Source: Gammaproteobacteria bacterium
Lineage (GTDB): Bacteria; Pseudomonadota; Gammaproteobacteria; DAOVJZ01
Direction of reading: 5' to 3'
Length of the DNA: 53,055 bases
Assembly: GCA_029882995.1 (NCBI GenBank)
Contig: JAOUJV010000006.1
Location: 1-53,055, forward strand
Shown: in pieces, positions 7,608 to 23,185 of the stretch
How the letters are laid out: every line of letters starts with the position of its first letter
Position numbering within the stretch: the first letter of the stretch is position 1
The notes under the pieces: model-generated
What the model was told of the DNA's origin: nothing
What the model saw: only the letters and a program-made list of their open reading frames with translations
The model's database searches: none
Translations under genes and position numbers: made by a program

Positions 7608-9887
7608 ATGGCTGATCCGTTAAGTACGGCGGTATCTGGACTGCTTGCTGTCCAGCGTTCGCTTGCCACTGCCAGTCATAATATTACCAACGCCAACACG
7701 GAAGGCTTTAGTCGTCAGCGCGTAGAAAATTCCACACGTACGCCCGAATTTACCGGTACCGGTTATATTGGAACCGGTGTTAAAACTGATACCGTCAAGC
7801 GTATCTTTAATGACTTCATTTATGAACAGGTAGTAACCGCTTCTTCTGCTTTTCATCAGGAAGACAGTTATGTGTCGTTAATTAATCAGATTGATAATAT
7901 GTTGGCTGATCCGAATACCGGTCTGAGTGCATCGCTGGAACGGTTTTTTGGTGCAGTACAGGAGGTGGCAGATGATCCAACATCAATACCTGCCAGACAA
8001 GCGCTGATCAGTGAGGGAGATGCACTGGTTTATAATTTCCAGATATTTGACAAGCGCTTTGATGACATTAATACAACAATTAACAATACGATTGAATCAA
8101 CAGTACAGGATATCAATTCACTGGCGCAGGATATTGCTGCTGTTAACAAGCAGATTACCGAGACACGCGGTTCAATTAATGATCAACCCCCGAATGATTT
8201 GCTGGATAAACGTAATCTGCTGATTAAACAGTTATCCGAGCTGATTTCTGTTGACACTTTTGAACAAGACGATGGTGCGATAAACGTCTTTATAGGCAGA
8301 GGACAGTCACTGGTGGTTGGTATTCATGCGCAGCAAATACAAACCACACGGGATCCACTGGATCCAAGTCGTCTTGATGTAGGTGTTACACTGGGAACAT
8401 CATCTAATGTCAATATTATTTCCGATTTCTTGACAGGCGGTTCACTCGGTGGGGCATTAAGTTTCAGGGACAATGTACTTGATAATGTCATCTATGAAGT
8501 AGGGCGTGTTGCTTTGGGGTTGACGACTGATTTTAATGAGCAGCACCGCTTGGGAATGGATCTGAACAGCGTATTGGGTGAAAACTTTTTTAATGTGCCA
8601 ACAACCAAGGTTATTGCCAGTACCAATAATATTATTAGTTCAGGTATCAGTGTTACCATTTCTGATGTAAATCAGCTGGAACCCAGTGATTATGAACTGG
8701 TTTATAACGGAAGTAATAACTTTACCCTGACACGTTTGACTGATGGTAATGTAACCAGCATCAATACAGGCGGTGTCTATCCTTATACCAGTACAGCAAT
8801 TGATGGCTTTACAATCGGGATTACTGCCGCGCCCTCGCAGGGTGATACCTTCCTGTTGCGCACCACCTCTTATGCGGCCCAGGGTGTTAGCCTTGCAATT
8901 ACCAATGCACAGGATGTAGCCGCCGCCGTGCCTGTGCGTACAAATATCTCCCTCAATAATACCGGTGTCGCAGCGATTGATTCAGGGCAAGTTGTGGACA
9001 GAGCCAGTTTTGTGAGTGATACGTATACTATTCATATGGCTGCTGCAACAACAGCGACTGCTGCTGCGCCTATTAGTTTTTTCGATGATGCTCCTACAGA
9101 TGACACACTTCAATATGAACTCCGGATCAATGGGTTTCTGGTTAACACCTACAATGAAGGTGATTCCCGAACATTGGCTCAGTTGCAAACTGATATTAAT
9201 ACAGATACAGCTAATACCGGTGTAAGCGCTTATCTTAATGCAGCAGGAACAACACTTTACCTGGCCAATGATCCTGCAACTGCATTACCGATATCCGTTA
9301 CCGAGACGTTTACAGGATATACTGAAGCTACAGACACGTTAACGGGACTGTTTGGTTCAGCTCTTTCGAGTGCAGGTGACACCAATACGATTACATACAG
9401 TAGCCCGGCAGATAGTTATATTGTTCTGGACAGTGGTAATAATGTGGAAGCCAGCGGTACTTATACTTCCGGAAATAATATTACCTTCAGTGGGATTCAG
9501 GTAAATATTAAGGATGCGGCTAATCTGGGTGATCAATTTACGGTGTTGTCTAATAATAATGGTGTGAGTGACAACCGTAATGCCTTGTTACTGGCTGCCC
9601 TGCAAACTAACAGAAATCTGGATAATGGAAACTCAACGTATCAAACGGCTTATGGCAAGATGGTGGCGACAGTTGGTATCCAGACAAGGCAGGCCGAAAT
9701 CACGCGTGATGCCAACGAGGCACTTTTATATCAGGCAGAAGAAACACATTCTTCAATCTCCGGTGTTAATCTGGACGAAGAAGCAGCGAATATGATTAAA
9801 TTCCAGCAGTCCTATCAGGCCATTGCACAGGTGATTGCAACGACTGATCTTATTTTCCAAACGTTGATTAATGCTGTTTCGAGGTAG
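7608..9887 (+). CDS. flgK: FlgK, hook-associated protein 1 (enlarged)
   Basis: FlgK is the first junction protein between hook and filament. The N-terminus (TAVSGLLAVQRSLATASHNITNANTEGFSRQ) and the C-terminus (SGVNLDEEAANMIKFQQSYQ, then ATTDLIFQTLINAVSR) are diagnostic. At 759 residues it is about 200 longer than enteric FlgK. The extra mass includes a segment at about residues 470-645 that is clearly related to a segment in the neighbouring FlgL (about 220-402). A GGAGGTGA ribosome-binding site precedes the ATG. A sigma-28 promoter lies just upstream. Confidence 0.97.
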   Translation: MADPLSTAVSGLLAVQRSLATASHNITNANTEGFSRQRVENSTRTPEFTGTGYIGTGVKTDTVKRIFNDFIYEQVVTASSAFHQEDSYVSLINQIDNMLADPNTGLSASLERFFGAVQEVADDPTSIPARQALISEGDALVYNFQIFDKRFDDINTTINNTIESTVQDINSLAQDIAAVNKQITETRGSINDQPPNDLLDKRNLLIKQLSELISVDTFEQDDGAINVFIGRGQSLVVGIHAQQIQTTRDPLDPSRLDVGVTLGTSSNVNIISDFLTGGSLGGALSFRDNVLDNVIYEVGRVALGLTTDFNEQHRLGMDLNSVLGENFFNVPTTKVIASTNNIISSGISVTISDVNQLEPSDYELVYNGSNNFTLTRLTDGNVTSINTGGVYPYTSTAIDGFTIGITAAPSQGDTFLLRTTSYAAQGVSLAITNAQDVAAAVPVRTNISLNNTGVAAIDSGQVVDRASFVSDTYTIHMAAATTATAAAPISFFDDAPTDDTLQYELRINGFLVNTYNEGDSRTLAQLQTDINTDTANTGVSAYLNAAGTTLYLANDPATALPISVTETFTGYTEATDTLTGLFGSALSSAGDTNTITYSSPADSYIVLDSGNNVEASGTYTSGNNITFSGIQVNIKDAANLGDQFTVLSNNNGVSDNRNALLLAALQTNRNLDNGNSTYQTAYGKMVATVGIQTRQAEITRDANEALLYQAEETHSSISGVNLDEEAANMIKFQQSYQAIAQVIATTDLIFQTLINAVSR

Positions 9888-9892
9888 CGATC

Positions 9893-11467
9893 ATGAGAAT
9901 ATCAAGCAGTCAGATGCAGCTACAGGGTTTAAATTCACTCCTGAAACAACAGGCAAGACTGGTTGATTCCCAAATGAAATTATCGACGGGGAAAAAGATG
10001 AATACCCCCGCTGATGACCCTGTAGGCTCTGCCGCTGTCCTGAATATTACACAGCAGTTAAAAATTATTGCCCAGTATCAGGAAAATGCCGAAACTGCCA
10101 AGGAACGCCAACAGCTGGAAGAAACAGTTCTAATTAGTGTTGAAAATGTAATAAGACGTGCAAAGGTACTGGCTATTCAGGGCGCCAACTCACCGGTTGG
10201 TAGTGGGGGGCGTTCAGACATTGCACTGGAAATCAGGCAGCGTTTATCCGAACTCGCCGATTTGGCAAATACCACCGATGCCAATGGTGAATATATCTTT
10301 GCCGGTTTTCAGGGACACACAAAACCCTTTACAGCCAACCTCGATGGTACCTACACCTATAACGGTGATCAGGGACAGCGATTACTGCAAATAAGTGCAG
10401 ACAGACAAGTAGCTGATCGTGATCCGGGCTCGGACATATTTCAGTTTATCAAGGATGGCAACGGCACATTTTCAGTGATTGATAATGCTAATAATACGGG
10501 GAATGGCATTATTCATACCGGCAGTGTTTCAGATATCACCGCCATTGATGGTGATACCTATACCCTGATTTTCGGGGAAGACACAACAGCAACAACTGCG
10601 AATGTGGGTGCGTTTTCTTTTGCTGATGGTGCGCCTACCAATAATACATTGGTTTATACTCTGGACATAAATGGAACCACTGTTTATTCAGTTGATGATA
10701 CCGGTGCGCCACCACCTGTTTTAACTTTGCAAGGGCTGGCAGATGAGATTAATAATGATGCGGGTACAACAGGTGTGCGTGCCCATGTGAATGGTGGACA
10801 GCTTTTTCTTGCCAATGATTCACCCTCGACGGGTGATATTGTAATAACTGAAGGTTTCAGTGGATTTACAGCAACAGAAGGGGATACGGTATTAGGTTAT
10901 TTTGGCAATACATTAACAGATACAAATACCAGCGTTGTCACAACACTTAACAATACAGCAGCATCAAATTATATTGTACTGGATAGCAGTAACAATATTG
11001 AAACAACCGGCACTTATGTTCCAGAAGGTGCTATCACGTTTAATGGTATAACCACCAGTGTAAAAGAAGATCCTAATAATGGTGACCGATTCACCATCAG
11101 CCCAAGTACAAACCGGGATATATTCAGGACACTAAATGATTTGGCAAAAGCATTGGAGGCAGGTGGTGGTACGACATCAGAAACAAATACATTTAACACC
11201 ATTAACCGCATGCTACTCGAACTGGATAATGTAGAAAACAATATCCTAACCATCCGGGCGGGTGTAGGTGGTCGCCTGAACACCATTGATGACCAGAAAA
11301 ATTTCAATGAAGACTTCTCAATTAATCTCGAATCCAATCGTTCAAGGCTCGAAGACCTGAACTATACTTCAGCTATTACCGAGTTTGAACAAATAATGAC
11401 AGCATTGCAGGCAGCACAGGCCTCTTTTGCAAGGATTCAGGGGTTGTCTTTGTTTAATTATCTTTGA
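9893..11467 (+). CDS. flgL: FlgL, hook-associated protein 3 (enlarged)
   Basis: FlgL is the second junction protein, on which flagellin polymerises. The flagellin-like N-terminus (LNSLLKQQARLVDSQMKLST, then KKMNTPADDPVGSA) and the C-terminal helix (LEDLNYTSAITEFEQIMTAL) are typical. At 524 residues it is larger than common FlgL proteins of 300-420. The added central region (about 220-402) shares YIVLDS-x-NN-x-E and ITF-x-GI blocks with FlgK. It begins five bases after the flgK stop and is the last gene before the glycosylation island. Confidence 0.96.
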   Translation: MRISSSQMQLQGLNSLLKQQARLVDSQMKLSTGKKMNTPADDPVGSAAVLNITQQLKIIAQYQENAETAKERQQLEETVLISVENVIRRAKVLAIQGANSPVGSGGRSDIALEIRQRLSELADLANTTDANGEYIFAGFQGHTKPFTANLDGTYTYNGDQGQRLLQISADRQVADRDPGSDIFQFIKDGNGTFSVIDNANNTGNGIIHTGSVSDITAIDGDTYTLIFGEDTTATTANVGAFSFADGAPTNNTLVYTLDINGTTVYSVDDTGAPPPVLTLQGLADEINNDAGTTGVRAHVNGGQLFLANDSPSTGDIVITEGFSGFTATEGDTVLGYFGNTLTDTNTSVVTTLNNTAASNYIVLDSSNNIETTGTYVPEGAITFNGITTSVKEDPNNGDRFTISPSTNRDIFRTLNDLAKALEAGGGTTSETNTFNTINRMLLELDNVENNILTIRAGVGGRLNTIDDQKNFNEDFSINLESNRSRLEDLNYTSAITEFEQIMTALQAAQASFARIQGLSLFNYL

Positions 11468-11599: not shown

Positions 11600-14500
11600 A
11601 TGCATACAAATAAAATAAAAAAACAACCTCTGGAAGGCTTGATTAAAAAAGTGAGAGGTTATATTGATATTAATGACTTTTATCAGGCAGAAAAACACCT
11701 GAAGATAGCTTTTAATCAAGAACCTAATAATACTCGCATTCTCTTTCTTTCAGGATTGCTGGAGTATAAAAAGTGTAATTTTTTAAAATCAATTTCCATT
11801 TTTCAGGATGTACTGAAAGAATGTCCCTCACATGTTGATGCACATATAAATATTGGAAGTTCATATAGTGAGTTAGGTATATTTGACAAGGCTGAATTTC
11901 ACTATCAAAAAGCAATAGAATTAAGTCCCGAGGATCATATCGCATTCAACAATTTTGGTAGCTTACGCAGAAAGCAAATGCATCTTGCAGAGGCACAAAT
12001 ATTATTTGATAAGTCTATAGAAATTAAACCAGACTATTGGCTTTCTTATTTCAATATGGGTGGAATTTTTGTAACCAGAAAAAAATACATCAAGGCATTA
12101 GAGTATTTTAAAAAAGCATTCGAACTGGAAAAAAACGCTAATACATACGCAAGCCTCTTGGGAGTATTAAAATATATTGATCCTGAAGAAGCACATGGAT
12201 TAGCTAAAGAAATCGCAAGTTTTAAAAACCTTGATTTCTCAATATTATCGGCATATCCCATTCTGGTGCGTTCGTGTGAATGGGAGATAGTAGATGCCAT
12301 ACAAGATAAAGTTTTAAAAATCGCACATGAAGAACAAAGACAAGTCAATTGGGTGCAAGGGATATTATTGCCTTTAAATAATCCCTATGGGATTAGCAGA
12401 GAAAATATTTTTGAAACACATAAGGCTTGGGGCAATAATGTGACTGATCAATCTAAAGATATCTATTCGCAGTATGAAGATGTGATGAAACCATGTTCGC
12501 ATATTCGTATAGGATATTTATCTGCTGATTTCAGGGAACACTCTGTAGGATATTTTATTAAAAACATCATACCTTTGCATGATAAAGCTCATTTCGAAGT
12601 GTTTTGTTATTCAAGCCTTAACCAAGAAGATGCAATTACGAAAAAGATCATAAGCTATTCTAACTCGTTTGCAAGAATTCAGAGTTTAACAGATATGGAA
12701 CTGGCAAAAAAAATACATGATGATGGTATACACATTCTTGTAGATTTGGGTGGCCATACAGCACACTCAAGAGTTGCCTCGCTTAAATATCGTCCTGCAC
12801 CTGTCCAGATTACTTATCTGGGGTATCCAAACACAACTGGTCTCAATGCAGTTGATTATCGGATTACCGATAATTATGCTGAATCAGATGATGGCACATT
12901 GTATACGGAAGAACTTCTAAAAATGCCAGAATCCTTTTTGTGTTTTGGTGGTTTTATAGAACAAGAAATAAAACCTGAATTACCACTGCAGCGCAAAGGT
13001 TATGTGACGTTCGGCTCATTTAATAATGTCAGTAAATTAAATACTGAAATAATAAAGGTATGGAGTGATATTTTGCATAAAGTTCCTGATTCTAAATTAG
13101 TTATCAAAGCAGGAAATGTAGAAAAAGATTATATACAAAAAAATATAAGAGGTGAGTTCATAAAGCACGGGATACATGAAGATCGTCTCGAATTAAAGGG
13201 GTTTAATAAGGATAAAGGAACACATCTGGATTATTATAATGAAATAGATATTGCGTTAGATTCCTTTCCTTATCAGGGAACAACCACTACCTGTGAATCA
13301 TTATGGATGGATGTGCCTGTAGTTTCTTTGGTGGGGAAATTACATGCACAACGTGTTTCTAATTCGATTTATAAAAATATTGGTGTTGAAGACTGCCTAG
13401 CTTATACTGAAGATGAATATATACAGATAGCTGTATCATTGGCTACTGATGTGAAAAAAAATGCAAAACTTCGAAAAAAAATCCACACAAGACTTAGAGA
13501 ATCAATTTTATGTAATCCGGAACGTTTTACGAAGCAGTTGGAGGACTTGTATAAATCAGCATGGATCTCTAAATTCAAAAAACTCCCTTGGGATAATTTT
13601 AAAGACAAGCACACTCCTGATGATTCACAATTACCAATAAAAATAAATGGTAGTGTGACAGTTTGTGTTCCAGATGACTTGAATCTTCCTACACCATATA
13701 TTTTATTAGAGCAGGAAGACTGGATTGAGCCAGAGTATAATTTTATCCAGCATGTATTAAAGCCGGGAATGAAAATTGTTGATATAGGTGTTAATTATGG
13801 AGTTTATACTCTTTCAGCAGCCAAACAGATATCTTCAAGCGGTATGTTATGGGCAATTGAGCCAAGCCCTGAAAGGGCGAGCTATTTAAGGGAAAGCCTG
13901 AAATATAATAATTTTAATAATGTTCATATCAAGACTGATTTATTAACTATTGATGAATATGCATTAGAAAATAATTGGAAAAATATTGATTTTCTCAGAT
14001 TGGATGTAGAAGAAATTGATGAGACATTGTTTACTAGTGGCAAGGAGTTCTATACTTCAAATTCGCCACTAATAATGGTCAGGATGAGAGAGGAAAATAG
14101 ACAGGAAGGAAACCTGGTTAACTATTTGTTATCATTAGGATATGAAGGTTATATGCTTATCCCTGGCTTGAATTTGCTTGCTCCGACTAAACCAAATCAG
14201 GATATTGACGCCTATAGAAAGAATTTATTTTTTTGTAAAGCTGACTGCGTAGAAAGTTTATCACTCCAGGGATTATTGATAAAAGAGGAACAATTATCTA
14301 TAGATGTACCTGCTCCACAAGTGGCAAAATGGATTGAACATCTTCAGCAGTTTCCTTATGTAAAATCGTTATTGGATTCATGGTTGTCTTATATGGAAAA
14401 AAATAATGATTCAGAACAATGGGTATTGCATCAGCGTGCACTCGATTATTATGCAATGGCATGTGAGCCAGACGAGAAAATAGCAAACAAATACCTATAC

Positions 14501-14977
14501 TTGAAATGTGCATACCAGATTCTAGCTAAACTTGTTCAGTCACATGGAACATTTTCAAATGTTCAATCATTCGTCAGAATTGCTGGTGAATTAGGTGTGA
14601 GAAGTCAGGCTGTTAGTGGGCTTGAATATCTTTTATCATTTAATAAATTCTTCTCAGACCCCACACTAGGAGAACCATTTTTATCAGTTTCATCAGATTA
14701 TGAAATGATTGAGCCAGAATCCAGAACTATTGACTGGATGAATGCCTCTATAATTTTTCAATATGAAAAATTATATGTTTTTTCATCATATTTTTCTGAT
14801 AAATCATCTCTTGAAAGACTGGAAAAGCTAAAAGAGACAGGTTTTATAAATTGTGAAATGGAAAGGAGAAGACAATTAATAAGGTTGAGGTTTAATCTCC
14901 AACAAAAGCCTGACGGAAGTATTTTTGGAGATGCTAAGTGTAATCTTAATAACTGGTTTTGGTTTCAAGAGGAATAA
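11600..14977 (+). CDS. TPR - GT41 (SPINDLY/OGT-type) glycosyltransferase - FkbM-like methyltransferase fusion
   Basis: A 1125-residue protein. Residues 1-195 are TPR repeats (for example AHINIGSSYSELGIFDKAEF). Residues about 300-665 match the GT41 O-GlcNAc-transferase core: IGYLSADFREHSVGYF with the conserved His, SFNNVSKLN with the conserved Lys, and LDSFPYQGTTTTCESLW. Residues about 720-880 look like an FkbM SAM methyltransferase (VDIGVNYGVYTLS), but the later motif reads LDVEEIDETLF where FkbM proteins usually have DVEG, so this domain may be altered or inactive. Residues 880-1125 are unrecognised. Placed next to fliC, it probably adds sugar to flagellin Ser/Thr. The AT-rich base use and weak ribosome-binding site suggest transfer. 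Confidence 0.85.
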   Translation: MHTNKIKKQPLEGLIKKVRGYIDINDFYQAEKHLKIAFNQEPNNTRILFLSGLLEYKKCNFLKSISIFQDVLKECPSHVDAHINIGSSYSELGIFDKAEFHYQKAIELSPEDHIAFNNFGSLRRKQMHLAEAQILFDKSIEIKPDYWLSYFNMGGIFVTRKKYIKALEYFKKAFELEKNANTYASLLGVLKYIDPEEAHGLAKEIASFKNLDFSILSAYPILVRSCEWEIVDAIQDKVLKIAHEEQRQVNWVQGILLPLNNPYGISRENIFETHKAWGNNVTDQSKDIYSQYEDVMKPCSHIRIGYLSADFREHSVGYFIKNIIPLHDKAHFEVFCYSSLNQEDAITKKIISYSNSFARIQSLTDMELAKKIHDDGIHILVDLGGHTAHSRVASLKYRPAPVQITYLGYPNTTGLNAVDYRITDNYAESDDGTLYTEELLKMPESFLCFGGFIEQEIKPELPLQRKGYVTFGSFNNVSKLNTEIIKVWSDILHKVPDSKLVIKAGNVEKDYIQKNIRGEFIKHGIHEDRLELKGFNKDKGTHLDYYNEIDIALDSFPYQGTTTTCESLWMDVPVVSLVGKLHAQRVSNSIYKNIGVEDCLAYTEDEYIQIAVSLATDVKKNAKLRKKIHTRLRESILCNPERFTKQLEDLYKSAWISKFKKLPWDNFKDKHTPDDSQLPIKINGSVTVCVPDDLNLPTPYILLEQEDWIEPEYNFIQHVLKPGMKIVDIGVNYGVYTLSAAKQISSSGMLWAIEPSPERASYLRESLKYNNFNNVHIKTDLLTIDEYALENNWKNIDFLRLDVEEIDETLFTSGKEFYTSNSPLIMVRMREENRQEGNLVNYLLSLGYEGYMLIPGLNLLAPTKPNQDIDAYRKNLFFCKADCVESLSLQGLLIKEEQLSIDVPAPQVAKWIEHLQQFPYVKSLLDSWLSYMEKNNDSEQWVLHQRALDYYAMACEPDEKIANKYLYLKCAYQILAKLVQSHGTFSNVQSFVRIAGELGVRSQAVSGLEYLLSFNKFFSDPTLGEPFLSVSSDYEMIEPESRTIDWMNASIIFQYEKLYVFSSYFSDKSSLERLEKLKETGFINCEMERRRQLIRLRFNLQQKPDGSIFGDAKCNLNNWFWFQEE

Positions 14978-15085
14978 TCTTTGTTGTAAAAAATATTGGA
15001 TATACACATTTAAATATGTATGACTTGGTTTGTGAAATCAGTAATAGATAAAATAGAATATAAACATGGAGCTGAAGATTTAGAA

Positions 15086-17488
15086 ATGTCTTCGATAACA
15101 AAAATAAAAAAATGCCGTATATGTGGGAATACTAATCTGGTAGAAGTATTGGATCTGGGAGACATGGTGCTTTCTGGCCGATTTCTTAAAACTGGGGAAC
15201 CTGATCCTACGTGTGGACCACTCAAACTTGTTCTTTGTCATGGATCGGAAGGCGACGATCATTGTGGGTTACTGCAACTTCAACATTCATATAACCTTAA
15301 CGAAATGTATGGCGAGACATATGGTTATCGCTCTTCTCTTTCGGGGGCAATGGTTCAACACTTAAATGAAGTTGTTAATAATGCTTTGTCATTAGCCAAG
15401 CCATTAAAGGGTGACGCAATTCTGGATATAGGATGTAATGATGGCACGTTACTAGGCTGTTATAAAAATATGGGATTAGAACGTTATGGAATCGACCCTT
15501 CAAGCGAAAAATTTAAAAATGAGTTTCCTGAAGACATACATTTATTGATAGATTTTTTTTCCAAAGACTCAATCACAAAAGCGTTTGGTGATATTAAATT
15601 TAAAATTATTACATCAATAGCAATGTTTTATGACCTTGATGATCCAATGAGTTTTATGCGCGATATCCATGATGCTCTTGATGTGGATGGAATCTGGGTA
15701 ACCGAGCAATCTCATATGGCTACTATGCTGGATAACCTTGCATTTGATACTGTCTGCCATGAACATCTGGATTACTATAATCTAAAACAAATAAAATGGA
15801 TGGCAGAACGTTGTGATTTAAAAATATTAGATGTGGAGGTTAATACAATAAATGGTGCCAGCTTTAAGGTAGTAATGGCGCGTAGTGATTCTTCATTTCC
15901 GATAAATAAAGATAATATTGATAATATCCTGGAACAGGAGGAGACAGCCGGATTTTCTACACTCGCTCCTTATCAGATGTTTGCAGAGCGTATTAAGTTA
16001 TTTCGCAAGAAAGTCCAGTGTTTTTTTGATAATGCAAAAGAGGCAGGAGAAACTGTAATTGGTTATGGTGCATCAACTAAAGGTAATGTAATTCTTCAAT
16101 ATTGCGATATAACCCCGGATGATATGCCATCAATTGCAGAAAAATATGAGCTGAAATTTGGTCTGGTTACTCCCGGAAGTCATATTCCAATTATTTCCGA
16201 AGATGAGGCACGTGCACAAAAACCAGATTATTTATTTGTTTTACCATGGCACTTTCGTGATGCAATTATTGAAAGGGAAAGTGAATATCTTAATAATGGT
16301 GGTGCTTTAGTGTTTTCACTTCCCCGGTTTGAAATTGTAAGAAAAAATAATCTGGCATCACTTCCTCATCATAAATCAAATAAAACGACCAAATATATTC
16401 CATGGGCAAAGCCTATGATTTTTGGCGATGAAAATTATTTGGTGCAAAAAGCATTAAGATCAACATTTATATCAGATGGAAAATATGTAGAACAATTTGA
16501 AAGTGATTTTGCCGCAGTGCATGGCATGCCAAAAGAGTGTTCAATTACTACTTCTAATGGTACCACTGCATTGCAAATGGCTTTATTGGGATTGGAGATA
16601 GGAACTGGTGACGAAGTTATTGTGCCGGGGTGGGCTTTTGCCGCTGCCGCAAATATGGTTATTGCATGTGGGGCTACACCCGTGTTTGTTGATGTGAATG
16701 AAAATACCTGGTTGCTCAATCCAGATAAGGTTAATGAGTGTATATCATCAAAAACCAAAGCCATTATAGTAGTACATACATTTGGTAATGTATGTGATAT
16801 GACTAGATTGCGTGAAATTTCAGATAAGCATGGAATTGTATTAATAGAAGATTGCGCCGAATCACTTTTCTCAAAAATTAACGGGAAATTGTCAGGGACA
16901 TTGGGTGATATTGCCTGTTATAGTTTTCAGGCAACCAAAACTATAACGTGTGGTGAAGGGGGATTGGTATTATCCAGAGATATAAAATTGGCTGAAAGAA
17001 TGCGTTTAATCCGAAATCATGGAATGACGCCAGATCGTAAATATTGGCACCATGTGGTAGGTTATAATTTCCGTATTACAAATCTTCAGGCCGCTATATT
17101 ATGCGCTCAATTGAGCCATAAGGAAGAGATCATATCCATGCGCAAACGGATTTTTCAGGAATATAAAGAACGGCTTGATAATATAAAAGGATTGAGTCTG
17201 CAAAAATTTAATTTAGAGATTGATCCTGTGCCATGGGCAATTGGTGTACATATTTCTCCTTCTGTATATAGTATTGATCGAGACGAAATTATGCACCGAC
17301 TTCAGAAAGAGGGTATCGAAACCCGTCCAGGGTTTTATGCGATGTCACAGCAGCCTATTTATTCTGCGCCTGTATTAGAATACTCGGAAAAAATTGCGCG
17401 AGAAGTTATTTTACTACCAATGCCGCCAGATATTACAAGTGACAGTATAGATCATGTTTGTAAAAACTTTTTGAGTGCACTCAACTAA
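15086..17488 (+). CDS. Fusion of sugar C-methyltransferase and DegT/DnrJ-type PLP aminotransferase
   Basis: An 800-residue two-enzyme protein. Residues 1-415 match the NDP-sugar C-methyltransferase family: a Cys-rich N-terminal zinc-type motif (CRICG), a SAM site (LDIGCNDGT), the signature VCHEHLDYY near residue 222, and a C-terminal GYGASTKGN domain. Residues 435-800 are a sugar aminotransferase of the DegT/DnrJ/EryC1 family with the PLP lysine in SFQATKTITCGEGG (about Lys618) and GYNFRITNLQAA. Together they could make a branched amino sugar. The frame is open to ATG 15020, but ATG 15086 starts right before the conserved domain and follows a GGAG, so I prefer it. The NDP-sugar precursor genes are not in this window. 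Confidence 0.85.
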   Translation: MSSITKIKKCRICGNTNLVEVLDLGDMVLSGRFLKTGEPDPTCGPLKLVLCHGSEGDDHCGLLQLQHSYNLNEMYGETYGYRSSLSGAMVQHLNEVVNNALSLAKPLKGDAILDIGCNDGTLLGCYKNMGLERYGIDPSSEKFKNEFPEDIHLLIDFFSKDSITKAFGDIKFKIITSIAMFYDLDDPMSFMRDIHDALDVDGIWVTEQSHMATMLDNLAFDTVCHEHLDYYNLKQIKWMAERCDLKILDVEVNTINGASFKVVMARSDSSFPINKDNIDNILEQEETAGFSTLAPYQMFAERIKLFRKKVQCFFDNAKEAGETVIGYGASTKGNVILQYCDITPDDMPSIAEKYELKFGLVTPGSHIPIISEDEARAQKPDYLFVLPWHFRDAIIERESEYLNNGGALVFSLPRFEIVRKNNLASLPHHKSNKTTKYIPWAKPMIFGDENYLVQKALRSTFISDGKYVEQFESDFAAVHGMPKECSITTSNGTTALQMALLGLEIGTGDEVIVPGWAFAAAANMVIACGATPVFVDVNENTWLLNPDKVNECISSKTKAIIVVHTFGNVCDMTRLREISDKHGIVLIEDCAESLFSKINGKLSGTLGDIACYSFQATKTITCGEGGLVLSRDIKLAERMRLIRNHGMTPDRKYWHHVVGYNFRITNLQAAILCAQLSHKEEIISMRKRIFQEYKERLDNIKGLSLQKFNLEIDPVPWAIGVHISPSVYSIDRDEIMHRLQKEGIETRPGFYAMSQQPIYSAPVLEYSEKIAREVILLPMPPDITSDSIDHVCKNFLSALN

Positions 17489-17505
17489 TTTGAGAGATAA
17501 ATGAA

Positions 17506-18306
17506 ATGGATTATAGAGATATTATAAGAAAACACTATAAAAAACAGGCTGAAGAATATGGAGACACATCCTCTGCAACAATGCAGGATGAAATCGTTCG
17601 TGAGAAAGAAGTAGATGCAATATTTAAATTCTTGCACAGCATTCCTGTTTCATCAAAACGAATACGTTTGCTAGAGATTGGATGTGGTAATGGGTTTTTG
17701 CTTTCATGTATTTCTAAAGAATTTAATGACCGATTTGAACTTTATGGTATTGATATGACACCAGAGTTAATAGAGATTGCAAAACAATCAAATCCGGATT
17801 GTCAGTTTACTCTGGGTGATATTCTAAAGACGCCATATGAGGGTGGTTTTTTTGACGTACTTATCTCTGAAAGAGTAATAATCAATGTGCTGGATGAGGA
17901 AGATCAGGTATCCACATACAGAGAAATGGCTCGTGTACTACGTAGCGGGGCACTTGCAGTGCTAATTGAAGGATATAAAAGTGGGCTTTACAATCTGAAC
18001 AAGGCGCGTGAGGAGTTTCTTCTTGAACCTATTCCTGAGCCTTCAGTTAATAATTGGTATACAGAAGAACGTTGGGAGTTGTTTTTAAAGACAGGGTTTG
18101 AAGAATTGCCAGAAGAAAAAATAAAAGATCTTATTCCAGAAAACTTCCTAAGTAGTCATTATTTTATGACACGATTTTTACATGATGTAATTCGTCCAGA
18201 GAATAGCAAAATACGTAACACAGAGTTTGCAAGATTCTTTGCAGAAGCACTGCCGCCAACGGGGGATTATTCACCACTCCGTATAAAATACTTACGCAGA
18301 ACCTAA
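17506..18306 (+). CDS. SAM-dependent class I methyltransferase
   Basis: The 266-residue product has a Rossmann methyltransferase core: motif I LLEIGCGNGFLLSCI (about residues 50-64), an acidic strand-2 residue in YGIDMTPELIEIA, then LGDILKTPYEGGFFDVLISE and a post-core REMARVLRSGALAVLIEG. This resembles Methyltransf_11/25-type enzymes. The substrate is unknown. It sits 17 bases after the aminotransferase fusion and before the second glycosyltransferase, so a sugar or glycan step in flagellin modification is likely. No partner-specific motif is seen. Confidence 0.8.
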   Translation: MDYRDIIRKHYKKQAEEYGDTSSATMQDEIVREKEVDAIFKFLHSIPVSSKRIRLLEIGCGNGFLLSCISKEFNDRFELYGIDMTPELIEIAKQSNPDCQFTLGDILKTPYEGGFFDVLISERVIINVLDEEDQVSTYREMARVLRSGALAVLIEGYKSGLYNLNKAREEFLLEPIPEPSVNNWYTEERWELFLKTGFEELPEEKIKDLIPENFLSSHYFMTRFLHDVIRPENSKIRNTEFARFFAEALPPTGDYSPLRIKYLRRT

Positions 18307-18361
18307 ACGACCGTGAGGAATAATGTCAAAGTAATAGTTTTACTATCAAGGTCTCTAAACA

Positions 18362-21055
18362 ATGAGTGATGTGATTAATAATCTTGAGTCCTTGATTCAG
18401 TCCTTTAAAACTTCTGCTGATCATGAAATAGAGAATTCTTTACGCTCCATTAGAGCGCAAGTTGCATCAGCATGGTTGAATGCCGATGTTAATAATTTAG
18501 TACCAGAATATACAGGGGAACTTGGAAAAGCGCACAAGCTTTTATTGGGCTCGGGGTTCTCCGGGGTTGCTCTAAATGAACAAGAAATAGCATTTACAAA
18601 AATATTACTTAAGGATATTAAAGATACACAATCTTCATCCCAGACGTTACATTATTTGTTGGCATGTATGCTTTATCTAGGGCCGCATGAGCTACCTGTA
18701 AATAATGATATAAAAAGTATACCTGCCTGGTTTTATGATGACTACATAAATTTTCTTGTCACCCCCCCGGTTATTTTCAAAAAGCCTGGTGAAGCCCTCG
18801 ATTATTTTCATTATTTAGAAAATATCATGCATTATTTTTCTGATAACTTGCTAGATTTACTCCAGATTGGGTCAAATGATTTTTATGATGAAACAATAAT
18901 AAAACTTAAATTTGTCCTCGCGTATTTTAATGAAGAAAATATAACTGGTCTCATGAGTATGCGTGCGAAATTAATGGAAAGCATGTTATATAGCACAAAA
19001 TATTGTCTTGACCATGTTTTTCCTTATCAAAAAACACAACGAAAAAAACACCGGATTGGGTTCCTTATTAATGCACTGGGAGATCATACGGAAAGTTATT
19101 TTGCATTATCAAATTTGGCTGGAATGTCTCGTAAATCAGTTGAAATTGTGCTTTATACATTAGTATCAACAAAACATCAGATGGAAAAACATGCTGAAGA
19201 AATGGTAGATCGGTATGTTTGTCTGGATAATATAAATACTAGCTCTATAGTTCAGCATATTCGTAATGATGATTTAGATGGAATGCTTTTTGCAACTAAT
19301 GTAACAGCGGTGACTAATCCGATGTTTATTCTTGCCAGTCATCGTTTGGCACGAGTGCAAATATCAACCATGGCATCTCCTGTGAGCACAGGCATTCGTA
19401 ATATGGATTATTTTCTTTCCTCTGTATTTAATGAGCCAGTGCATAATCCACAAGAGCAATATACTGAAAAACTGATACAAATTCCCGGTGGATTAAATCA
19501 TTTTTCTTACCAATATGATAAAGTAAAATCTACTTTTTCTTCTTTAGAGCGCAAAACTTTAGGCATTCCTTCTGAAGCCATAGTATTTTTCTCAGGAGCA
19601 AATTTTTTCAAGATTCTGCCGGAGTTATCAGAGGTATGGGTAAAGATAATTGCAAAGGTGCCAAATTCTATTCTTGTACTTATGCCCTTTAACCCCAACT
19701 GGACTAGTCAGTATCCAGAACATGTTTTTTTGTCACGATTAACACAAGAATTTGAACAGGCAGGGATAGATAAAGATCGGTTACGTATTATCAATCCAGT
19801 TCCTCATCGTGTTGATGTGCATGAAGTTATCAAGTTGGCAGATATCTATTTGGACAGCTTTCCCTTTGCTGGTTCATGTTCAGTATTTGATCCCTTGAGC
19901 GTTGGTTGTCCACCGGTAGTCTGGAGTGGTAAAACAGCTCGTTCGAGACATGGGGCAACTTTGCTTAAAATGTTTGATCTTGAGGAGATGATTGCAGAAA
20001 GTGAGCAAGACTATATTGATAAAGCAGTTGCCTTGGCGTGTGATGAAAATTTAAAAAACAAAATAATTAAAAAAATTAATCACCGTCTTGAAACTGGAAA
20101 TCCGGTACTGGATACAAATACTCTTGGCCCTCGTGTGAGTGATGCTGTTATCAATGTTATTGATAATTATCATAAGGAGGAAGATATCCTATTTAATAGA
20201 GATACAACCTCGCTTGTATCTGAGATTCAGAATCTGTCAACTAAAATCACACCAGATAAACCGTTTACCCTGGGTCTTACAGATGCGGCATGGGTAAAAT
20301 CATTACTCTTGTCCTATTTCAAATCACTTGAGGATGGTTCAAAACAGAGGCATATGGTTGATGTGGGTGCATGTTATGGAGAAATAGCAGTTCCATTTTT
20401 ACAACAAGGCTGGACAGCTGATCTTTTTGAGCCAGACCCGGAATGTTATACTGTACTGGAACAGCATTTTAAAAATGTTTTGAATAAAGTTGTTCATCTT
20501 CACCCGGTTGCGGTTAGTACCGAAAATCAGGATTCGGTTGCTTTTCACAAGGCATGTGCCAATGGTCTTTCAGGATTGAGCGCCAGTCCTTATGGCGCAA
20601 CGGAACAGGTACTTTCTGTTCCCGGTGTACGGCTTTCGGATTATTTACACGAAATTAACATGGATCATGTAGATTTTTTAAAGATAGATGTTGAGGGGTG
20701 GGATCTGGAAATCCTTAAGACGCATGATTTTGATGCATTTTTACCACGTTTGGTTATGGTTGAAGCGAGTACCGCATTCGAGAACCAAACAATTGAAGCT
20801 ATCAATGGTGGTATATCATGGATGGAGCAATATGGATTTGCTCCTCTCATCATACAGTATGAGGATGACGGGAATTTTCGTAAGGGAATCTGGAAATATA
20901 GACTCAGCAAGCTCTTGCTTAATAAACAAATTGAGCCATCAGATAAGGGTGATTTTTTAGCTAACATCCTCTTTTACCGCAAAGAAGATACGGTTTTTCT
21001 AGCCAGCTTGCTGAAATTCCTGCGTTCTCTTTTAGCCTCTAACTCCCCTGAATAA
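18362..21055 (+). CDS. Divergent GT41-type glycosyltransferase - FkbM methyltransferase fusion
   Basis: An 897-residue protein with the same architecture as the first island gene but without recognisable TPRs. Residues 1-220 are helical and unassigned. Residues about 230-610 resemble the GT41 core: IGFLINALGDHTESYF with a candidate catalytic His, SGANFFKILPELSEVW with the Lys, and LDSFPFAGSCSVFDPL. Residues about 660-840 are an FkbM methyltransferase with MVDVGACYGEI and a canonical FLKIDVEGWDLEIL. It is the last gene of the island, about 310 bases before fliC. Glycosylation plus O-methylation of flagellin is the best guess. The GT assignment is less certain than for the first protein. Confidence 0.75.
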   Translation: MSDVINNLESLIQSFKTSADHEIENSLRSIRAQVASAWLNADVNNLVPEYTGELGKAHKLLLGSGFSGVALNEQEIAFTKILLKDIKDTQSSSQTLHYLLACMLYLGPHELPVNNDIKSIPAWFYDDYINFLVTPPVIFKKPGEALDYFHYLENIMHYFSDNLLDLLQIGSNDFYDETIIKLKFVLAYFNEENITGLMSMRAKLMESMLYSTKYCLDHVFPYQKTQRKKHRIGFLINALGDHTESYFALSNLAGMSRKSVEIVLYTLVSTKHQMEKHAEEMVDRYVCLDNINTSSIVQHIRNDDLDGMLFATNVTAVTNPMFILASHRLARVQISTMASPVSTGIRNMDYFLSSVFNEPVHNPQEQYTEKLIQIPGGLNHFSYQYDKVKSTFSSLERKTLGIPSEAIVFFSGANFFKILPELSEVWVKIIAKVPNSILVLMPFNPNWTSQYPEHVFLSRLTQEFEQAGIDKDRLRIINPVPHRVDVHEVIKLADIYLDSFPFAGSCSVFDPLSVGCPPVVWSGKTARSRHGATLLKMFDLEEMIAESEQDYIDKAVALACDENLKNKIIKKINHRLETGNPVLDTNTLGPRVSDAVINVIDNYHKEEDILFNRDTTSLVSEIQNLSTKITPDKPFTLGLTDAAWVKSLLLSYFKSLEDGSKQRHMVDVGACYGEIAVPFLQQGWTADLFEPDPECYTVLEQHFKNVLNKVVHLHPVAVSTENQDSVAFHKACANGLSGLSASPYGATEQVLSVPGVRLSDYLHEINMDHVDFLKIDVEGWDLEILKTHDFDAFLPRLVMVEASTAFENQTIEAINGGISWMEQYGFAPLIIQYEDDGNFRKGIWKYRLSKLLLNKQIEPSDKGDFLANILFYRKEDTVFLASLLKFLRSLLASNSPE

Positions 21056-21364
21056 GCACCATCCAATACCTGTTGAAATATAGGCTCTGGGGGGCTACTG
21101 AAAGGAGTCAAAAATAGGGTATTTATCCTAAAAAAACATAACGCATTGAAAAACAAAGAAATTTTTCCGAGTATATTTAGCTAAAAAAACTGAATTTTTA
21201 TTAAAGGATAAGATTTCCCTGCCGATAGTGTTACTGGGAGCGGTGAATATTTCCAATTTGTGGAAGTATATCCGCTAGGTATAAAGCTCTACCTTCGGTG
21301 CAACCCTGCGCTGGCCCAAGCCGCGTGGGGTTTATTGTTTCTGGAGGTCATAGGAGAAAATATA
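21056..21364 (+). other. Flagellin promoter and leader region
   Basis: No gene is seen here. The left part (21056-21200) is AT-rich with no clear terminator for the island. A sigma-28 promoter follows at 21202-21228. The leader then contains a GC-rich hairpin at about 21300-21333 (AACCC/GGGTT ends, about ten pairs with wobbles) and a strong Shine-Dalgarno region, GGAGG then AGGAG, just before the fliC ATG. The two GGA motifs near the start could also be contacts for a CsrA/RsmA-type repressor; that is speculation. Confidence 0.6.
21202..21228 (+). promoter_or_regulatory. Sigma-28 (FliA) promoter of fliC
   Basis: TAAAGGAT-N11-GCCGATAG matches the FliA consensus TAAAGTTT-N11-GCCGATAA in spacing and almost fully in the -10. 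It lies about 137 bases before the fliC ATG, leaving a long leader. FliA is encoded at the end of this window, so flagellin should be expressed late, after FlgM export. Confidence 0.88.
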
Positions 21365-23185
21365 ATGGCTCAAATTATTAACACTAACGTTGCGTCTTTG
21401 AACGCACAGCGTAATCTGGACAGGTCGCAAGGGCAGTTAGGTATTGCTCTGGCGCGTTTGTCATCAGGTCTGCGTATTAACAGCGCGCGAGACGATGCTG
21501 CGGGCTTGGCGATTTCGGAACGATTCACAACCCAGATTCGTGGTCTGAATCAGGCGATTCGAAATGCTAACGATGGTATCTCTCTCGCACAGACAGCTGA
21601 AGGTGCATTAGGCGAAGCGGGTAACGCGCTACAGCGTATTCGTGAGCTGGCGATTCAGTCTGCTAACTCCACTAACTCGGTATCTGACCGTGCGGCGTTA
21701 AACTCAGAAGCGGCACAGTTGCTTTCTGAAATTCAGCGTAACGCGTCAACCACTTCATTTAACGGACAGAAGATTCTGGATGGTACGTTCTCAACTGCAC
21801 AGTTCCAGGTAGGTGCGGAAGCGAACCAGACTATTTCGTTTGGTATTACGGGTGCAACCACTGATCTGTTAGGTGCTTATCAGGCAGCAGGTACTGAGGT
21901 TACAACTAACGCATTTGATGGTACTGCAGCTGGATTAGCTATTAACGGGGTTGCAGTATCGGAATCATCTGCAACTACGGCCGCTGGTGTAACAGCTGGT
22001 AGTGCAACTGCTAAGGTAACGGCAATTAATAGTGTAAGCTCACAAACAGGTGTTACTGCAACGGCTACAAACACTATTACCGGTATAGCACCGGTTGCTG
22101 GGCAGGCGCTTAATAGCGGTGACCTAGTAATCAATGGTATAGATGTCGGTTCTGTTTCGGCGGCTAATACAGCGGTACTTCAGGGTGCTGCTGCAGCAAC
22201 AGCAATCAATGCGGTTTCCAATCAGACAGGTGTCACTGCGGAAGCTGATAAATCAAATGGTGCAATTACTCTGACTGCATCGGATGGTCGTGATATTACA
22301 CTTTCATCTGCAACTACCGCGCTTGTAACGGATGTCTTTAATGCAACCGGTTTGGATGCTAATAACGGTGCTAATCCGACAGGAAAAGATACACGTGATC
22401 TCACATTTTCTGCATTTATAATCTCGGATGCTAGTGTAGGCTCAACAGATGTTCTTTTCGGTGAGACTGTAACCATTGATGACATTGTTTATGAATTCAA
22501 TACAGCAGGTACTGTTACAAGTAATACACTGATTGAAGTTGCATCTGGTGATGCTCAAGGAACTGTTCTTACTGATTTGGAAACTGCAATCAATAACAAT
22601 AGTACTGCCGGATTATCGACTGTTACAGCCAGTCTTACAGGTTTAGTACTGACACTGACCCAGAGACTGGAAGGTGCGGCTGGTATTACTTCTGCTGATT
22701 CAATCGCTGACCCTGTAATTACATTTGGAGCGACAGCTGGCGGTACAGATGCTGCAGATGCAGTTGCAAACCGTGATGGTGGTGAAATCACTCTGAGTTC
22801 GGATAAGAACTTTACCTTAACAGGTGATGATCTGGCAGATGGTGGTTTTACTGGTATATCTCCTGCATTAACCCAGTTGAATACAGTGGATATTTCCACG
22901 GTTGCGGGTGCTAATGCGGCAATCTCGGTGCTTGATGGTGCCTTGTCACAGGTTACGACGATTCGATCCGATCTGGGTGCTATCCAGAACAGGTTCCAAT
23001 CAACGATTAATAACCTGGCGGCAACCACTGAAAACCTGAGCGCTGCGCGAAGTCGAGTACTTGATGCTGACTTTGCGGCAGAAACTGCGGCACTAACACG
23101 TGCACAGATTCTGCAGCAAGCAGGTGTAGCGATTCTGTCACAGGCAAACGCACTACCACAATTGGTATTGAGTCTGTTGCAGTAA
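21365..23185 (+). CDS. fliC: FliC, flagellin (606 residues)
   Basis: Flagellin, the filament subunit. The start [18 protein letters not shown] follows GGAGGTCATAGGAGA, so ATG 21365 is right although the frame is open to 21260. Conserved D0/D1 segments are at both ends: [20 protein letters not shown] and [16 protein letters not shown] (the region seen by TLR5 in other bacteria), and at the end [20 protein letters not shown]. The central region, about residues 175-510, is Ser/Thr/Ala-rich with two flagellin-hook-IN-like repeats ([20 protein letters not shown]). It is the likely substrate of the upstream glycosylation island. This is the only flagellin gene in the window. Confidence 0.98.

Follow-up and report, generated by a model that had tools for sequence, protein, structure and literature searches.

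In a draft gammaproteobacterial genome (GTDB lineage DAOVJZ01; GCA_029882995.1) we identify four consecutive genes that, judging from their domains and location, are likely to form an island for the O-glycosylation of flagellin, set between flgL and fliC. Its two large proteins each carry a GT41 glycosyltransferase domain joined to an FkbM-like methyltransferase module; one of these modules is intact, and the other has lost a conserved block and a key motif. The window discussed below is the whole stretch of DNA that was analysed, namely the 53,055 nucleotides of contig JAOUJV010000006.1, which is contig 61 of a 2.42-Mb draft in 175 contigs.

The gene block between flgL and fliC

The window has the gene order flgI-flgJ-flgK-flgL, followed by the four island genes (11600-21055), all on the same strand, and then fliC-flaG-fliD. 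The relevant features are:

9893..11467, + strand: flgL, left border of the island (Pfam Flagellin_N/C; 82% identity to the flgL of a congener)
11600..14977, + strand: orf1, 1125 aa; TPR, SPINDLY-like GT41, eroded FkbM-like module and helical C-terminal domain
12362..13570, + strand: GT41 catalytic domain of orf1, aa 255-657 (best solved relative SPY, 7y4i, E 6e-102)
13628..14149, + strand: FkbM-like module of orf1, about aa 677-850 (Pfam, alignment and structure model)
14306..14974, + strand: C-terminal all-helical domain of orf1, about aa 903-1125, ~220 residues (structure prediction)
15020..17488, + strand: orf2, 822 aa; fusion of a sugar C-methyltransferase and a DegT sugar aminotransferase
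15104-16339, + strand: sugar C-methyltransferase of orf2, aa 29-440 (Pfam Methyltransf_13/23/14)
16397-17473, + strand: DegT sugar aminotransferase of orf2, aa 460-818 (Pfam DegT)
17506..18306, + strand: orf3, 266 aa; stand-alone class I SAM methyltransferase
18362..21055, + strand: orf4, 897 aa; N-terminal part without a TPR match, divergent GT41 and intact FkbM methyltransferase
19046..20092, + strand: GT41 domain of orf4, aa 229-577 (Pfam, alignment)
20351..20839, + strand: FkbM methyltransferase of orf4, aa 664-826 (Pfam)
21202..21228, + strand: sigma-28-like promoter box with one mismatch, between the island and fliC (motif scan)
21365..23185, + strand: fliC, 606-aa flagellin, the presumed acceptor (Pfam)

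The four genes are separated by gaps of only 17 to 55 bases and have a GC content of 33.8-37.4% (GC3 0.265-0.296), as against 43.2% (GC3 0.366) for flgL and 47.3% (GC3 0.329) for fliC. The first-pass annotation had described four AT-rich genes at this position, and the block is indeed atypical in composition (34-37% GC versus 43-47% in the flanks); it also places glycosyltransferase and sugar-biosynthesis genes beside a flagellin gene in the manner of an insertion. Family searches of the source genome, the means by which all checks within it were made, recovered orf1 and orf4 as its only GT41 genes. Promoter and terminator scans within the island gave counts at chance level, and no RNA families were found in the window. 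A scan of the window for sigma-28 promoters (up to two mismatches, consensus 14-base spacer) gave 7 matches versus 0.95 expected, and counts with a 15-base spacer were at chance level. Given the sigma-28-like box 5' of fliC, this gene probably has its own promoter and would not depend on the island for its transcription.

Serine and threonine make up 25% of the middle part of FliC, which would have a mass of 60,601 Da when unmodified and retaining its Met. A longer form beginning at a GTG codon, offered by the ORF caller, finds no support in the conserved M-A-Q-I-I-N-T-N start. On the other side of the island, FlgK (residues 450-646; 8955-9545) and FlgL (residues 200-402; 10490-11098) share an inserted module with 42% identity over 208 aligned positions, and the FlgK of the congener gives the same match.

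GT41 domains and a proposed sugar pathway

Profile searches recover the GT41 domain that had been proposed for both large proteins, with 185.8 bits for orf1 and 103.2 bits for orf4 against a Pfam cut-off of 25. The active site of SPINDLY (SPY) comprises H495, S496, N661, K665, H728, Y744 and T748 (PMC9715652), and orf1 keeps every one of these residues that was checked (H314, S315, N475, K479, H542, Y558 and T562), among them the catalytic H314/K479 pair that, with its profile score, places it in the GT41 family of CAZy. The corresponding catalytic residues of orf4, H242 and K417, are likewise kept, and it too is a GT41 protein; in its donor pocket, however, F502 and S505-C506-S507 replace the Tyr and Thr-Thr-Thr of SPY. 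Thus, orf1 alone has the SPINDLY set of residues, including the equivalents of Y744 and T748, and orf4 is not assigned to the SPINDLY-type O-fucosyltransferases; its altered donor-site residues suggest that it probably uses a donor other than that of orf1. We call orf1 SPINDLY-like by resemblance, and the name does not imply fucose transfer from GDP-fucose. A TPR domain was detected by Pfam in orf1, and none was matched in the N-terminal part of orf4. A search of the genome contig collection found no close relatives of full-length orf1.

The previously noted fusion of a C-methyltransferase with an aminotransferase is also confirmed in orf2, where matches to Methyltransf_13/23/14 precede a full-length DegT domain (361 bits; profile positions 6-358 of 360). 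The aminotransferase half matches perosamine synthetase (E 2e-72), and the methyltransferase half matches D-mycarose 3-C-methyltransferase (E 2e-54) and TcaB9 (E 4e-46). Among the residues that we take to have active-site roles in TcaB9, Tyr76, Glu224 and His225 are kept in orf2, and Tyr222 and His181 are replaced by Cys and Asp, respectively; the same two replacements are found in its nearest relatives (41-47% identity). In 369 genomes of the class the two halves occurred only as separate proteins, with no fusion of the orf2 type. On a 32-kb plasmid of Brachyspira hyodysenteriae (L193:817-3252), a DegT gene comes immediately after one for a C-methyltransferase, the two adjoining a gene of the dTDP-4-dehydrorhamnose epimerase family; given these unfused neighbors, orf2 looks like two adjacent genes that have been joined. 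The free methyltransferase of the earlier account, orf3, belongs to class I and has no more specific assignment.

From these assignments we infer the substrates, the acceptor, the identity of the sugar, its attachment and methylation, and the order of the steps. First, orf2 would C-methylate a nucleotide-linked 4-keto-6-deoxyhexose next to the keto group and then aminate C4, yielding a methyl-branched 4-amino-4,6-dideoxy sugar; such a branched amino sugar is a plausible product of its two domains. The precursor would be made elsewhere in the genome: no 4,6-dehydratase is encoded within the island, and the presence of rmlB (499.8 bits) and gmd (607.7 bits) outside it indicates that a dTDP- or GDP-linked 4-keto-6-deoxy sugar is obtainable. 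Second, orf1 would transfer a 6-deoxyhexose-type sugar to Ser/Thr residues of flagellin in the cytoplasm, prior to export, with its TPR domain guiding it to flagellin as the N-terminal domain of FlmG does. Third, orf4 would attach a second sugar, with either flagellin itself or the first sugar as the acceptor; O-methylation by the intact FkbM domain of orf4 would then cap this second sugar. Finally, orf3 may contribute a further methyl group. Taken as a whole, this detailed order of steps is rather doubtful.

GT41 enzymes with known products put single sugars on protein. It is therefore conceivable, though less likely than not, that orf1 and orf4 act in parallel, each placing single sugars on different sites of flagellin so that no disaccharide is formed, and the differing donor-site residues of the two proteins would fit two such independent modifications. 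The same data equally fit sequential action, however, and orf4 has no recognizable protein-binding TPR domain, which would suit a sugar rather than a protein as its acceptor.

The eroded FkbM-like module and the helical domain

The FkbM domain of orf4 scores 60.8 bits over profile positions 1-171 of 173, and is thus a full-length FkbM methyltransferase with intact M-V-D-V-G-A-C-Y-G and K-I-D-V-E-G motifs. The match in orf1 reaches only 30.4 bits, and its best-scoring part spans profile positions 89-172 of 173. Scanning named genomes recovered 83 relatives that combine an FkbM module with the C-terminal tail of orf1; 74 of these were examined, and 49 rows entered an alignment. Nearly all rows (46 of 49) share a stretch of 44-50 residues in which an E-x-N is near-invariant. 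In the orf1 module (METHYLTRANSFERASE) this segment is down to 13 residues, a block of 31-37 residues being missing. Two relatives that adjoin flagellin genes, L134 and L136, have 15 and 32 residues in the segment, and L078, a further relative from a flagellin locus, also lacks the block. Moreover, the consensus K-L-D-A-E-G-E-E reads R-L-D-V-E-E-I-D in orf1, such that the K-x-D-A-E-G motif is lost. Hence, though homologous to FkbM, the module does not have the combination of SAM motif and K-x-D-x-E-G that marks the full-length methyltransferases, and it is probably non-catalytic.

We also considered whether the shortened module, instead of being a dead scaffold, might have retained methyltransferase activity with a changed chemistry. 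Its first SAM motif, V-D-I-G-V-N-Y-G, is intact, and its predicted structure keeps the Rossmann fold with high confidence (pLDDT 91.5); against this, the block with the near-invariant E-x-N is gone, D-A-E-G-E-E has become D-V-E-E-I-D, and two of the flagellin-locus relatives have lost a glycine of the first motif too, which together make continued activity unlikely. In the preferred reading, the eroded module and the helical tail of orf1 would together serve as a scaffold or docking surface. In a tree of the tail, orf1 groups with L099, which has an intact FkbM domain, and with the congener, which has none, and L134, L136 and L078 fall in another clade; the block was therefore lost at least two times independently. 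A single origin for all eroded modules was considered and rejected on the basis of this tree, which calls for at least two changes.

The tail itself, which like the TPR domain was absent from the first-pass annotation, is predicted as a helical domain with a pLDDT of 93.7. It matched no Pfam family, and a fold search against the PDB gave nothing significant, the best hit being a weak one to TPR proteins (E 0.057). The FkbM-plus-tail unit is fused to GT41 in a single ORF, with the domains in either order, in 20 of the 74 relatives, and 18 more have a separate GT41 gene in the examined flank; these counts make the helical unit look like a GT41 partner, perhaps one that serves in docking. Two of the recovered FkbM-helical sequences, from a Bdellovibrio-labelled bin (L108) and a Zetaproteobacteria bin (L110), are identical, suggesting that one of the two contigs was probably assigned to the wrong bin. 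Another gene of this type (L121) lies on a metagenome-bin contig labelled Bordetella parapertussis, a doubtful species label.

These results modify the earlier description of two duplicate fusions of GT41 with an FkbM-like methyltransferase. It holds for orf4 and only in part for orf1, and the two are poorly described as duplicates, given the erosion of one methyltransferase module and the differing GT41 donor sites. Nor can such fusions be called uncommon, in view of their frequency among the relatives and given that, in a survey of enterobacterial flagellin islands, they are the norm for GT41 proteins (PMC4875605).

Occupants of the site in relatives and in known systems

Comparison within the genus involved one congener, represented by a draft genome. 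Its flgI-flgJ-flgK-flgL genes have the same order, with 79-91% identity to those of the window, and directly after flgL it codes for a 1299-aa GT41 protein (L045:6888-10787) that shares 47% identity with orf1 across the TPR-GT41 region and has the layout GT41, helical domain, Methyltransf_11 and sulfotransferase. The congener contig ends soon after this gene and fliC is absent from the draft, so that the assembly covers only the left side of its island. In another family, precisely the interval from flgL to fliC is occupied by an FkbM-helical gene, and a genome related to it has such a gene adjoining fliC; a third family has a GT41-FkbM-like-helical-sulfotransferase protein beside two fliC genes and fliD. 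A cultured bacterium, Mariprofundus sp. EBB-1 (L104), is one example in which the GT41-FkbM-helical layout adjoins fliC. This recurrence of related GT41 and FkbM genes at the same site or in a flagellin neighborhood supports the proposal of a flagellin-modification island. The congener and the other-family occupants further indicate that the flgL-fliC site has been reused, with tailoring modules exchanged there. The C-terminal Sulfotransfer_1 domain of the congener protein scores 112 bits, and sulfotransferase domains are also found within the GT41 proteins of L078 and of L099 (GT41-sulfotransferase-FkbM-helical), whose tail is the closest to that of orf1 in the tree; sulfated flagellin glycans are thus possible in these three.

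The modules also occur in other settings. Among the 74 relatives, 11 have fliC, fliD or flgL in the examined flank and 63 have no flagellin-cluster gene there, counts to be read in light of the many flanks that end early at contig ends. No second full-length GT41-FkbM fusion of the orf4 type was found in 369 genomes of the class and 399 of the phylum (both at E<=1e-30) or in plasmids; the nearest relatives are an unfused 605-aa protein (31%), a 1466-aa protein from a cyanobacterium in which the partner domains are others (33%) and part of an ORF on a 5.7-kb cyanobacterial plasmid (36%). A Synechococcales genome (L113:4203-11407) has genes for DegT, a methyltransferase-GT2-orf4-type GT41 protein and an FkbM-helical protein in one run, which is nearly the same module set as that of the island; no flagellin gene was matched in its examined flank. 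The occurrence of the FkbM-helical family and the orf4-type GT41 in bacteria where a search nearby gave no flagellin gene, for example in cyanobacteria, indicates that the modules are not flagellin-specific. That the island itself modifies another surface protein or a polysaccharide and landed among flagellar genes by chance, as the Synechococcales cassette and the flanks lacking a flagellin-cluster gene might suggest, is nonetheless very improbable, since related genes recur at the flgL-fliC site in the congener and other families, the island genes are co-oriented with the flagellar genes, and contig ends shorten many of those flanks.

On a broader view, the flagellar-locus GT41 proteins might be evolving as single-chain assembly lines in which FkbM, Methyltransf_11 and sulfotransferase domains are swapped around the conserved helical domain, with recurrent decay of FkbM in flagellin-locus members, an idea that we offer tentatively and consider questionable. 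In the clade of orf1, the congener and L099, FkbM is intact, eroded or absent and the sulfotransferase stands before FkbM, after the helical domain or nowhere, a pattern that documents module swapping in these presumably flagellin-modifying GT41 enzymes. If this were true, close relatives would decorate their flagella with methylated or sulfated sugars; the proteins make sulfation of bacterial flagellin glycans conceivable, are compact enough to offer a test of how glycosyl transfer is coupled to tailoring, and draw attention to a widespread apparent GT41 partner without a Pfam entry.

Among characterized proteins, Arabidopsis SPINDLY (PDB 7y4i, 8dtf; PMC9715652) has the TPR-GT41 layout in common with orf1; unlike orf1, this eukaryotic O-fucosyltransferase has regulatory targets and no fused tailoring domains, and orf4 departs from it at Y744 and T748. 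TcaB9/MtmC and perosamine synthetase (PDB 4e2w, 4rv9, 3dr7) match the halves of orf2 over their full lengths, but they are separate proteins, whereas orf2 is a single chain that differs from TcaB9 at two active-site positions. The N-terminal domain of Caulobacter FlmG binds flagellin; FlmG uses pseudaminic acid and, in the available text of its description, has no methyltransferase domain, unlike orf1 and orf4 (PMC7591256).

It is well established that flagellin islands can occupy the interval from flgL to fliC or other positions in the flagellar cluster (PMC3927599; PMC4875605). The flgL-fliC region and viosamine island of Pseudomonas (fgt1/fgt2, vioA/M/T) have flagellin glycosyltransferase genes upstream of fliC, as here, and place on flagellin an aminated and methylated 6-deoxy sugar resembling the one proposed above, its methyl group being revealed by the 14 Da effect of a vioM deletion; the aminotransferase, methyltransferase and transferase are, however, separate genes, and viosamine is not C-branched (PMC3927599). 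De Maayer and Cowan (2016) described GT41 proteins with methyltransferase domains from 194 strains and 15 island types (PMC4875605). The enterobacterial islands of that account share with the present one low GC, a location beside flagellin, GT41-methyltransferase proteins, DegT aminotransferases and FkbM or other methyltransferases; they differ in lying between fliC and fliA (the fliDC/AZ locus) rather than flgL and fliC, their methyltransferase domains are given by cd02440 only, and an eroded module, a helical tail domain and a sulfotransferase fusion are not among the features described in the available part of that account. Thus, the island type itself is already known, and against the open-access literature, in its available portions, the eroded module, the helical partner, the sulfotransferase-bearing relatives and the single-chain orf2 fusion appear to be new.
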